Origin: a virus
Virus record (IMG/VR): IMGVR_UViG_3300037245_000622
Location: 1 to 26,732 of that record
Reading direction: 5' to 3' (one strand)
Length of the DNA stretch: 26,732 nucleotides
Positions 10,297 through 26,732 of this stretch are shown here, in pieces. A model generated the notes under the pieces. That model ran no database searches. It saw nothing but the letters and a program-made list of their open reading frames with translations, and was not told the origin of the DNA. How positions within the stretch are numbered: position 1 is the first letter of the stretch; each line of letters begins with the position of its first letter. A program made the translations under genes and the position numbers.

Positions 10297-10304
10297 TATT
10301 TATA
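10297..10304 (-). promoter_or_regulatory. T4-type late promoter octamer for core-scaffold-capsid genes
   Basis: Minus strand reads TATAAATA, overlapping the stop of the protease gene and 35 bases before the small core protein start. Confidence 0.65.
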
Positions 10305-11007
10305 AACTTTTTAAAAATTCGTTCATTAAATTAAATATATACTCCGAACGTTGCTTTTTAGGTAGGTTGCTTAAACCGTTTTCAACTATATTATAATTGA
10401 CTTCAAGTATGTCACCATGTATATCAACCATGAAGTTTTTCGACTCCAGTATACCATCAACAAACTGACCTATTGATGGGTTAACAACACAGTCAACGGT
10501 GGACATCCGATAATTTCGAACCACCGACTCTTTCTTATTTCCCCACTTCTCTTGAACTAGTTTACCAACACCACGTGTTGAGAATCCAATCTTGGAACCG
10601 TGTTGAACTAGTGATGCTAATATATCACCCTTTGGTGTACCTTTAATGTTGTTATCTTGATCAGATGCTAATATAATGGATTCACCGATCCATACACCTT
10701 CATCATCTTTCTCCTCATTAAGTTTTGTGATTCTGATAGCCGCTTCAGCAGGATTGATATGGGTGTACTCTGGGTGTTCAAGTTCACCAAGTGCTCTATT
10801 GGTCTTAACCATCTCGTTAATGAACCGTGTTACTTCTGTTCTCATATCATCGAGTGGGTATAGTCGGTCATTGCCATTTAATTTGTTTGCAACTATATAT
10901 GGACCAACCAATTTCATCTGTTTGAATCCAGCATCATTGGCTTCAGTGACTATATCATAGTCATTGAAGTCGTTTTCAACCATAAGTTTTAGTAAAGTTT
11001 CTTTCAT
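10300..11007 (-). CDS. 21: Prohead maturation protease (gp21-like), 235 aa
   Basis: A serine protease of the herpesvirus-assemblin fold that cuts capsid, scaffold and internal proteins after Leu/Ile-x-Glu. Motifs: NGNDRLYP, ALGELEHPE with catalytic His78, and KIGFSTRGVG with catalytic Ser143; these align with ALGELNHP and GVSSRGLG of T4 gp21. The frame is open from a TTG at 11028, but the late promoter octamer at 11032-11039 would leave no leader. The second ATG of an ATGATG pair, at 11007, has GGAG six bases upstream, so I choose it. It is separated from the portal gene by a terminator and has its own late promoter. Confidence 0.93.
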   Translation of the reverse strand: MKETLLKLMVENDFNDYDIVTEANDAGFKQMKLVGPYIVANKLNGNDRLYPLDDMRTEVTRFINEMVKTNRALGELEHPEYTHINPAEAAIRITKLNEEKDDEGVWIGESIILASDQDNNIKGTPKGDILASLVQHGSKIGFSTRGVGKLVQEKWGNKKESVVRNYRMSTVDCVVNPSIGQFVDGILESKNFMVDIHGDILEVNYNIVENGLSNLPKKQRSEYIFNLMNEFLKSL

Positions 11008-11031
11008 CATTATCTCCATGTTCTTCAATGT

Positions 11032-23704: not shown

Positions 23705-24136
23705 TTACCTAGTAACCTTTGAGAAACCAGAACCAAAAACGAAACCAACCACCGACATCACTGACATTCTAACCCATTCTGGATATACCAAACCTTCAGC
23801 TTGGATAACATTATATGCTTTACCCCATTTAATGAACCCCCATAAGAATTCATGTTGTGGTGCATCTTGTATAATACTTACTGGTATATCGAAGAATGGT
23901 GCAACCAATAACCCACCAAACGCAATTGTGATTATAATCAAACCAATTGTCTTTCGTAAAAATGGTGAACCACGTTTAGCCGCTTCGTTTGCGTTTTTAT
24001 TTGCTTGATCATCCCTCTTGATTTGCATCTCAAGAAGACCCATCATATCAGCATGTTTTTGTGCATTCATCTTCATGATGAATGAACCAACGGTTGTTGT
24101 CAACATTACTATAGTTTCTACTGGTAATCCAAACAT
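23705..24136 (-). CDS. Holin-like membrane protein, 143 aa
   Basis: Three hydrophobic segments: residues ~5-22 (PVETIVMLTTTVGSFIMKM), ~66-85 (TIGLIIITIAFGGLLVAPFF) and ~122-138 (MSVMSVVGFVFGSGFSK), with a charged helical stretch between the first two (QIKRDDQANKNANEAAKRG). This resembles three-helix phage holin-like proteins in which a helix precedes a RK-T-GxxxxxxxF membrane segment. A holin would permit lysis at a set time. GGGAG precedes the ATG. Neighbours encode an envelope protease-like protein, a DUF1353 protein and a secreted protease, consistent with a lysis or envelope cluster. Not proven to be a holin. Confidence 0.6.
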   Translation of the reverse strand: MFGLPVETIVMLTTTVGSFIMKMNAQKHADMMGLLEMQIKRDDQANKNANEAAKRGSPFLRKTIGLIIITIAFGGLLVAPFFDIPVSIIQDAPQHEFLWGFIKWGKAYNVIQAEGLVYPEWVRMSVMSVVGFVFGSGFSKVTR

Positions 24137-24145
24137 AATAACTCC

Positions 24146-24688
24146 CTAAAAATTAGTCCAATCAGCGTTCTTTATCTCCGATGATTTAAGTTTATATTCA
24201 CCATCTTGATTAGGCCAGCAATCGAAGAATACACTCTTACCTTTCTTGACATAACACTCAACACATACATGACCCTTCTTATCCTTCCTGATAAATGAGA
24301 ACGGTGCAATACCCAAACCTAACCCATGTTGGTCACCAACGTTTATATAAAACCATTCCTTCATCAATGTACACATACGTTCAGCATAATCATCACAATC
24401 TCGCCATCTATATACATTATTAGATAGTTTCCAATCAGTTTGTTTCATCTGGTCATGAGCATATCTAGCTGATGTCAACAGTTCATCCATTGTCGGTTTG
24501 TAATATTTGGAATCAACCTGTCTGGAACCAATCTTCCACACCTTCTGTAAAAACACAGTCAAACCAGTAAAACATAAGATATTCAAACCAGCCATATCCC
24601 AGTAATCAAACACTGAGAACGATAGACCGACCTGAATAATTGAATACACTGCCATAATGGCTATACATATTATCATTTTACTTTTCAT
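24146..24688 (-). CDS. Membrane-anchored transglutaminase-fold cysteine peptidase-like protein, 180 aa
   Basis: Two N-terminal hydrophobic segments (residues ~4-26 and ~32-50) followed by a domain with a Cys-His-Asp set in transglutaminase-like order: YRWRDCDDYAERM (Cys98), KKGHVCVECYV (His140) and VFFDCWPN (Asp156). Such phage proteins are thought to cleave or amidate peptide or peptidoglycan bonds. If the anchoring places the domain outside the membrane, it could act on the cell wall during lysis; if inside, on a cytoplasmic target. It overlaps the DUF1353 gene by 11 bases. The catalytic triad is seen in sequence; substrate unknown. Confidence 0.65.
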   Translation of the reverse strand: MKSKMIICIAIMAVYSIIQVGLSFSVFDYWDMAGLNILCFTGLTVFLQKVWKIGSRQVDSKYYKPTMDELLTSARYAHDQMKQTDWKLSNNVYRWRDCDDYAERMCTLMKEWFYINVGDQHGLGLGIAPFSFIRKDKKGHVCVECYVKKGKSVFFDCWPNQDGEYKLKSSEIKNADWTNF

Positions 24689-25109
24689 AACGTTTCATCA
24701 CCTTTAATTTTAATAGTTTCCTTATAAAGTTAGATATAAATATACCAAAGTACCAATAAAATTCAACACTTAAATACATCACATACCGTATTAGTCGCTT
24801 AACCTTCAACACCTTCATTGCCTCTTTAAAAATCATATTGATTTGATGATAGGTGAAATCATGTTTATCCATATTATCAATTAACCAATCATGTACAATT
24901 GTTGCTCTACTATATCGACCAACTGGTGGTATAATAGACCAAAATATCCGTGGTACATTTGCTAAGTTTGATCTATAATGATCATCAATTGTTATCATTT
25001 TATGGTAATCAGTTGAATAAAATTCAAACACACCAATAACTTCGAATGGTTTTTCATTCAATGGGACATTATGTATTAAACAACTAAATGGTTTAGTGAA
25101 AGAACTCAT
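24678..25109 (-). CDS. DUF1353 family protein, 143 aa
   Basis: Contains SNLANVPRIFWSIIPPVGRY (48-67), RATIVHDWLID, and IFKEAMKVLKVKRLIRYVMY, matching the DUF1353 pattern TDxASVPRxxWxxxPPxGRY...AAxxHDxLY...FxxAMxxxGV. This family is common in phages and often lies near lysis genes; its biochemical role is not established to my knowledge. The C-terminal ~30 residues are hydrophobic then strongly basic (LSVEFYWYFGIFISNFIRKL), suggesting membrane association. The frame extends to 25121, but the ATG at 25109 has GGGGA five bases upstream and overlaps the protease stop (TAATG), so it is chosen. Confidence 0.8.
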   Translation of the reverse strand: MSSFTKPFSCLIHNVPLNEKPFEVIGVFEFYSTDYHKMITIDDHYRSNLANVPRIFWSIIPPVGRYSRATIVHDWLIDNMDKHDFTYHQINMIFKEAMKVLKVKRLIRYVMYLSVEFYWYFGIFISNFIRKLLKLKVMKRYEK

Positions 25110-25909
25110 TACAATCCCCATCCTCTATTTACGGGCATCAAATCTGCATGTATGCAGTGGAAACCCTTGACGGATGTAATCACACCGATGAGTACAGGGT
25201 TGCCTTCTACAATGACGAACACGGGGTCACCCGAATCCCCTATGTATAAACCGAGTGCGCTCCCCCATCCACCACCGAACTCGCGTACCTGATAGATATT
25301 CACACAGACCGGAACTCCATTCTGTTTGAGTACTGTGAATGGTACGTGGTTACTGTACCAACTCCACCCCCCTAAATCAAAGTAGCTTTGGAAGTTAATA
25401 GGAGCTAATGTGCAGGGTTTAATCGGTAAGTCCCTATCTAGTTCCATGAAGCAATAGTCATACACACCAGTCGTACCGTCTGACATGATGATTGGCGTAC
25501 CGTCTTCCCCGTAAATCGTATCATACGCAACATTAACCACAACCGCTGTATATGCTCCGAATATCATCTTCTCACCAACCTGATGATGCCAATGCTCACA
25601 ACTAACCGCAATATTCGGTGCAACCAAAGTGGCTCGCTTACCTTCCGTTGTGGTAAAGGAGTAGTCGATCTGCTTGTAGTAGTTGGTACAGTCCTGAACT
25701 GCGATCACCATATCAAACGGGGTTACTTTGATTTCAGTGGTGTAGAACTCGCTATCCTCAATACTCAAGAGGGTTTGAGTGGATACTTCAACCTGATTAG
25801 TCAAAGACCCACGACTCGTCACAAGTTCAACCTTCACGGTTCCACCATAACACACCCCATAAAATAAATTCATCAATATGATGATTGCTATGATGGATCG
25901 ATTCAACAT
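25109..25909 (-). CDS. Secreted trypsin-like serine protease, 266 aa
   Basis: Signal peptide at residues 1-~22 (a basic start, then IIAIIILMNLFYGVCYGG), so export across the inner membrane is expected. A chymotrypsin-fold triad is visible: His106 in IAVSCEHWHH, Asp151 in VYDYCFMELD and Ser226 in GDSGDP (usual GDSGGP has Gly where Asp228 lies here). Five cysteines near the core could form disulphides in the periplasm. The gene is about 50% GC in sampled lines while its neighbours run at 22-35%, pointing to recent acquisition. AGGA lies seven bases before the ATG. It is followed in the same operon by DUF1353, transglutaminase-like and holin-like genes. Target protein unknown. Confidence 0.8.
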   Translation of the reverse strand: MLNRSIIAIIILMNLFYGVCYGGTVKVELVTSRGSLTNQVEVSTQTLLSIEDSEFYTTEIKVTPFDMVIAVQDCTNYYKQIDYSFTTTEGKRATLVAPNIAVSCEHWHHQVGEKMIFGAYTAVVVNVAYDTIYGEDGTPIIMSDGTTGVYDYCFMELDRDLPIKPCTLAPINFQSYFDLGGWSWYSNHVPFTVLKQNGVPVCVNIYQVREFGGGWGSALGLYIGDSGDPVFVIVEGNPVLIGVITSVKGFHCIHADLMPVNRGWGL

Positions 25910-25918
25910 TATTATATC

Positions 25919-26713
25919 CTATTGATAAAACTTATTATAAAACCACGGATTATTAGCAACAATTTGTTCAGACACCTGTCTCCCAAGTATATCATTATAT
26001 CTAATTGGTGACGGTTTAACTACGGGTTTAATTTCATGATTACCAAATACACCATGAATTTCGTGATTTTCTTCAACTTCTTTGACTACGTTTTTGAAAT
26101 CGTGTGTAAATTGTGTCATACCTAGATAATCATAAATACCACTCATAGTACCTTTAGGATCGGTTGTGAGGTCTTCAAACCTAACACAATGAATACTATC
26201 TAGGTTACCCCGAATATCGGCATCATTAAGCCGTTGAAGTGCTGTAGCGATATGAGAGTTATTCAACCATTCCTGAACACGCTGTTCAACCATCAAATGT
26301 CCACCAATTGGAAGGTGTTGATTTTCTCTCCATACAAGTTCCTGACTTACCATTACTTCACGGAGATCACGAACCATACAAATCATTTTAGGCGTTTCAC
26401 CCATGATATTGGTCAACCACTCATGTACGATCATCCACCCTCTGGATTTATCACAAACGTTCAGTCTATCCGTAATTGGCTCATAGAAACCGTCCATCGC
26501 ACTTCTACATGAATGAAGCATCGCCTGTCTCATCAACTCTGTTGGTTGACTCTTTACTTCAGGCATTTCCATATGGTTTTTAATTCCTTCACAGAATCCC
26601 AATAATGGACTTGTTGGTGATCCATAAATCTCAGGATTTTGGTGAAGAATAACTTGAAGTAGTTCACTACCAGATCTTGGCATACTACTATTAAACATAA
26701 ACTTTTTACTCAT
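25919..26713 (-). CDS. Sulfotransferase-like protein, 264 aa
   Basis: Transfers sulfate from PAPS to an acceptor. Residues 6-22 (MFNSSMPRSGSELLQVILHQ) hold the 5' phosphosulfate-binding loop (PRSGSxxL), and MICMVRDLREVMVSQ (~110) the 3' phosphate-binding motif (RDLxxVxxS). HPNPEI-like HQNPEIYGS follows the family's usual order. Sulfotransferase genes of this type are frequent in marine T4-like phages. The frame opens from a TTG at 26719, but the ATG at 26713 has AAGG eight bases upstream and is chosen. It precedes the protease gene by nine bases. Acceptor unknown; it may modify surface glycans together with the glycosyltransferases. Confidence 0.82.
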   Translation of the reverse strand: MSKKFMFNSSMPRSGSELLQVILHQNPEIYGSPTSPLLGFCEGIKNHMEMPEVKSQPTELMRQAMLHSCRSAMDGFYEPITDRLNVCDKSRGWMIVHEWLTNIMGETPKMICMVRDLREVMVSQELVWRENQHLPIGGHLMVEQRVQEWLNNSHIATALQRLNDADIRGNLDSIHCVRFEDLTTDPKGTMSGIYDYLGMTQFTHDFKNVVKEVEENHEIHGVFGNHEIKPVVKPSPIRYNDILGRQVSEQIVANNPWFYNKFYQ

Positions 26714-26732
26714 TGACAATACCTTAACTTTT

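Follow-up and report, generated by a model that had tools for sequence, protein, structure and literature searches.

A T4-like phage fragment carries an apparently horizontally acquired gene for a probably exported, trypsin-like serine protease

The window analysed here, meaning the whole stretch of DNA under study, is the complete IMG/VR record IMGVR_UViG_3300037245_000622 (26,732 bases), a fragment of a T4-like phage. We found that one of its genes, an open reading frame of 266 amino acids with an ATG start on the minus strand (25109–25909), encodes a predicted trypsin-like (chymotrypsin-fold) serine protease, was apparently acquired horizontally and is fitted to the operon in which it lies. 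The acquisition is supported by the outlier composition of the gene together with its absence at the same site in two related phages. In our estimate the case is evenly balanced that the product is a Sec-exported S1-like endopeptidase that would cut host envelope proteins late in infection. An initial annotation of this DNA had described the same reading frame and a His106-Asp151-Ser226 triad; both are exact, and the triad is invariant in 56 homologues.

The composition of the gene sets it apart. The initial annotation gave a GC content of about 50%, and the gene does stand out from its two neighbours (28.5% and 37.3%), but that value was slightly high: the whole gene has 45.3%, with local peaks of 50–58%. 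Since the major capsid gene reaches a similar 44.8%, GC content alone is a weak sign of transfer. GC content at third codon positions (GC3) is ordinary in the capsid gene (0.351) and lies between 0.243 and 0.359 in the 28 window genes other than the protease gene, which itself has 0.498; in the other genes, 267-codon stretches reach 0.378 at most, and the value is raised along most of the protease gene. The codon-usage z of the protease gene is −9.1, the next most extreme window gene being at −2.3. These tests therefore settle the doubt over whether high GC here indicates transfer, with GC3 decisive in supporting the protease gene as a compositional outlier of foreign codon usage.

We compared the same site in two syntenic relatives, L002 and L037, both of whose records are fragments. 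The nearest phage relative found, L002, has a ribonucleotide reductase 92% identical to that of the window and the same order of genes (DUF1353 protein, transglutaminase-like protein, 143-residue protein, 251-residue protein, ribonucleotide reductase). Directly upstream of its DUF1353 gene there is no protease, only a short stretch without coding sequence that follows what appears to be the end of an unrelated frame, and L037 has yet another protein at this position. Searched with a protease profile, the whole L002 and L037 records gave no match; the protease gene of the window, as positive control, was found (2.4e-35). Codon usage and the absence from these relatives, at the site and elsewhere in their records, thus support the proposal that the gene was acquired.

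The placement in a phage operon, also proposed earlier, is supported as well. A Shine-Dalgarno-like AGGA (25917–25920, minus strand) overlaps the stop codon of the upstream sulfotransferase-like gene, and TAATG (25107–25111, minus strand) contains both the stop codon of the protease gene and, overlapping it, the start codon of the DUF1353 gene that follows downstream; the two overlaps show that the protease gene is fitted to the operon. Foreign codon usage and the lack of any close relative in the searches described below would suit passenger cargo without a selected function, or an assembly chimera. We regard this as quite improbable, however, because the frame and the triad are intact and both the ribosome site and the stop/start overlap are fitted to AT-rich neighbours.

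The protease belongs to a family of divergent homologues. A degenerate DNA pattern for GDSGxPxFx4Gx3LxG retrieved 32 viral loci, many encoding a common domain type, and a search with a five-member alignment gave 68 viral (IMG/VR) and 26 bacterial loci, the latter mostly in Verrucomicrobiota with some in Planctomycetota and others. The 56-row alignment of these divergent homologues is called A6. A family hidden Markov model built without the window protease scores it at 53 bits. So that the test would not be circular, the sequence ahead of the retrieval motif was also scored alone. It reached 26.0 bits, and the best of 5,000 shuffles 8.6; this extends the homology beyond the motif. Identity between the family and the window protease is only about 20%, and the sole invariant columns (n=56) are H106, D151, S226 and G227, so that the triad in the protease is more than chance. 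Its codons lie on the minus strand at 25592–25594 (His106, the equivalent of chymotrypsin His57), 25457–25459 (Asp151, Asp102) and 25232–25234 (Ser226, Ser195, within GDSGDP). Literature searches found no published study of this trypsin-like family of phages and Verrucomicrobiota.

The fold points to the same class of enzyme. Searched against PDB, the A6 profile matched 290 distinct sequences at E≤1 (best E 2.4e-5); all 60 matches listed, the best 60 of the 290, are S1-type serine proteases, and the H, D and S of the profile align to the known H57/D102/S195 triad of the solved enzymes. An AlphaFold (AF2) model based on A6 has a core predicted local distance difference test (pLDDT) score of 65–91 over most of residues 84–250, with dips, and superposes on chymotrypsin with a VIA Z of 16.1 over 170 residues (root-mean-square deviation 3.1); Foldseek gave an E of about 1e-6. 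The model built without an alignment had a pLDDT of 31.8. From its His-Asp-Ser order, its GDSG motif and the double beta-barrel of the model, the protein is predicted to be an S1-like chymotrypsin-fold protease of clan PA. It shares fold, triad order and GDSGxP with MEROPS S1 and PF00089 (Trypsin), but differs in having no PF00089 match of its own (7 of the 56 homologues match at E≤0.01) and in the residue at position 189. There, judged by distance from Ser226, it has Gly220 in place of the Asp189 in the S1 pocket of trypsin proper, so Arg/Lys specificity is unlikely. The earlier label of trypsin-like therefore holds for the fold and the triad, while trypsin-type specificity, and with it trypsin proper, is not supported.

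Searches for the origin of the protease were negative. As a single query it had no usable match in Pfam, PHROGs, NCBIfam or PDB sequences, or among phage records, and plasmids gave two chance-level matches, nothing usable. Scans of viral and genome contigs also found none; they used exact 8-residue patterns and hence exclude close relatives alone. A weak single-protein search of 338 Verrucomicrobiota and 343 Planctomycetota genomes, run without a positive control, found none either, and the pattern GDSGDPVF occurred at four loci, none with the motif in an open frame. The initial annotation had looked to a bacterial donor such as Vibrio; no close donor was found by similarity anywhere searched, and Vibrio was not searched by itself. 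In a tree the window protease groups with the loci L042 and L043, with which it shares a Cys before the catalytic Glu/Gln-His; all branches are long, and the placement therefore gives no origin. This Cys is also found in L052 and L068, and all four of these phage-contig members end in a dockerin-like repeat at the C-terminus (PF00404 in L043, 9.4e-8).

The N-terminus of the protease suggests export. Codons 1–22 (25844–25909, minus strand) encode the segment MLNRSIIAIIILMNLFYGVCYG, followed by GTV, in which the n-, h- and c-regions of a signal peptide are visible by inspection as a short positive stretch, a 14-residue hydrophobic core and a small-residue cleavage site. The signal peptide in the initial annotation is consistent with this, and the protein is probably exported by Sec through a cleavable signal peptide; six cysteines would be left in the mature chain. 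A cytoplasmic protease that processes phage or host proteins during maturation is, in turn, highly improbable. Such a role fits poorly with the signal-like N-terminus, and the phage encodes its own T4-type prohead protease (Peptidase_S77, PF03420, 7.1e-22) as a separate gene at 10300–11028, so that head maturation would not need the window protease, which has no PF03420 match.

Most phage relatives are used differently. Domain matches among the 41 phage open frames of the family include long-tail-fibre N-termini, tail sheath and Big_2 or fn3; in two frames, the trypsin-like domain appears, as read from the frames, to be fused to the T4 gp15 sheath stabiliser (PF16724, best E 1.1e-64). Some phage contigs have two copies of the domain, either in two genes or side by side within a single protein (L103, 2903–4123 and 5425–6735; L132, 5809–8511; L051, 3050–4309 and 6467–7681). 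Phage members are mostly tail-appended domains without a signal peptide, and the Verrucomicrobiota members look like lipoproteins with lipobox-like signal starts. The window protease, stand-alone and with a signal-like N-terminus, thus appears to be an odd member of A6.

These relatives raise the idea that the protease is displayed on the virion, its hydrophobic N-terminus serving as an anchor or assembly signal, and that it would sit on the tail and help to penetrate the envelope or matrix. Its kinship with C-terminal domains of tail-fibre, tail-sheath, sheath-stabiliser and Ig-like proteins, and the tail-fibre and virion-protein genes next to its relatives, speak for this. We nevertheless find it unlikely, since the window copy stands alone, begins like a signal peptide and has no recognisable tail domain. 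Equally doubtful is a scenario in which a tail-type phage protease domain was freed, given a signal peptide and set in an envelope-directed operon, where it would act by proteolysis in lysis or in stripping the cell surface.

The initial annotation called exported trypsin-like proteases of phages unusual. This was overstated, as the A6 domain family occurs widely across IMG/VR contigs and comparable proteins exist outside it. Staphylococcal exfoliative toxin A is a secreted chymotrypsin-fold serine protease encoded on a prophage; it sets a precedent for a phage-carried enzyme of this kind, with no kinship implied, but is a lysogenic-conversion factor of a prophage in a Gram-positive pathogen. 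Further trypsin-like proteins on viral contigs, with N-termini that resemble signal peptides or lipoboxes (L045, L056, L064), were retrieved by the same motif search; terminase genes are present on this set of contigs. One of these proteins matches PHROG 9683 ('protease'), a group of phage trypsin-like proteins that includes one with a signal-like N-terminus (L056), but which the window protease does not match. Sinorhizobium phage phiM9, of the T4 superfamily, encodes Sm_phiM9_102 ('trypsin-like serine protease domain protein', KP881232), likewise stand-alone and with a hydrophobic N-terminal segment for export or anchoring. It differs in belonging to another branch, Trypsin_2 (PF13365, E 1.8e-10), with no detectable sequence similarity to the window protease or to A6, and in adjoining capsid genes, outside an operon of the window type. 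A trypsin-like serine protease domain protein has also been reported for Rhizobium phage P10VF (PMC10783043).

The neighbours of the protease gene lie on the same strand. Upstream is the sulfotransferase-like gene (25919–26719; PF13469, phrog_27463), of which marine cyanophages hold distant relatives. Downstream follow the DUF1353 gene (24678–25109; PF07087, start codon set by the L002 alignment), a gene for a membrane-anchored protein (24146–24688) and one for a 143-residue protein with hydrophobic segments (23705–24136; phrog_38283, 88% identical in L002). The product of 24146–24688 has no Pfam match; by eye it has a DC(D/E)DYA ... GHV.VEC ... FFD pattern (Cys98/His140/Asp156), conserved in L002, that resembles transglutaminase-like cysteine proteases. 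By inspection, hydrophobic membrane segments are present in several of the downstream neighbours, as would fit an envelope-directed cluster. A lysis cassette, considered through the family of the 143-residue protein, was not proved, as its neighbours in other phages are mixed structural and amidase genes.

Envelope cleavage, our favoured interpretation, would proceed as follows. A T4-like phage would have picked up the protease gene from an outside source and inserted it into a tight operon (sulfotransferase, protease, DUF1353 protein, transglutaminase-like membrane protein, small membrane protein) that would be expressed during infection. The protein, predicted to be catalytically competent, would be exported by Sec to the periplasm or cell surface, would fold in the periplasm with its six cysteines, and late in infection would cleave host envelope proteins, which would promote lysis and release or eliminate receptors. 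Direct neighbours of the phage family members match tail-fibre, virion, hyaluronidase, endolysin and amidase families, and this placement among tail-fibre, virion, endolysin and amidase genes favours such a role.

Several points weigh against it. The signal peptide is read from the sequence by eye, and the envelope substrate is a supposition; in most of the phage members there is no signal peptide and the protein looks virion-associated, and a lysis or envelope role is for that reason a guess from location. The confidence of the A6-based model is modest (mean pLDDT 60), with residues 1–74 without resolved structure. With only two syntenic relatives, both fragments, L002 and L037 may also have lost the gene instead of the window phage gaining it. 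The same signs of export and activity would serve a secreted or surface factor against competitors, which would destroy receptors, including those on debris, or incoming phage tails, and so act in superinfection exclusion and not in lysis. A recently acquired gene at a variable position is typical of accessory functions, yet no receptor or target is known and no relative with such a tested role was found, and we consider this rather unlikely.

Elsewhere in the window, the T4-like character of the phage is seen in the gp23 capsid protein (PF07068, 3.6e-82), the portal and a family B DNA polymerase, and further in the S77 prohead protease and a B12-type ribonucleotide reductase. In addition, a nicotinamide phosphoribosyltransferase fragment (2–802; PF18127) and an NMN adenylyltransferase-like/Nudix protein (1534–2487; PF01467 weak, PF00293) make up a phage NAD-salvage pair that is possibly directed against NAD-depleting defences.

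Taken together, these results describe a trypsin-like domain family that occurs widely in phages from the environment, for the most part attached to tail proteins, and that is covered by no Pfam or NCBIfam model recognising the window protease. In one T4-like phage at least, the domain is present as a probably exported enzyme, and its gene there bears clear signs of having been acquired horizontally. If a tail-type domain was indeed freed and turned to export, it would be a lysis component of a tailed phage other than a peptidoglycan hydrolase, holin or spanin. Few studies have dealt with how phages proteolyse the host surface, and concrete genes are now at hand for testing it.
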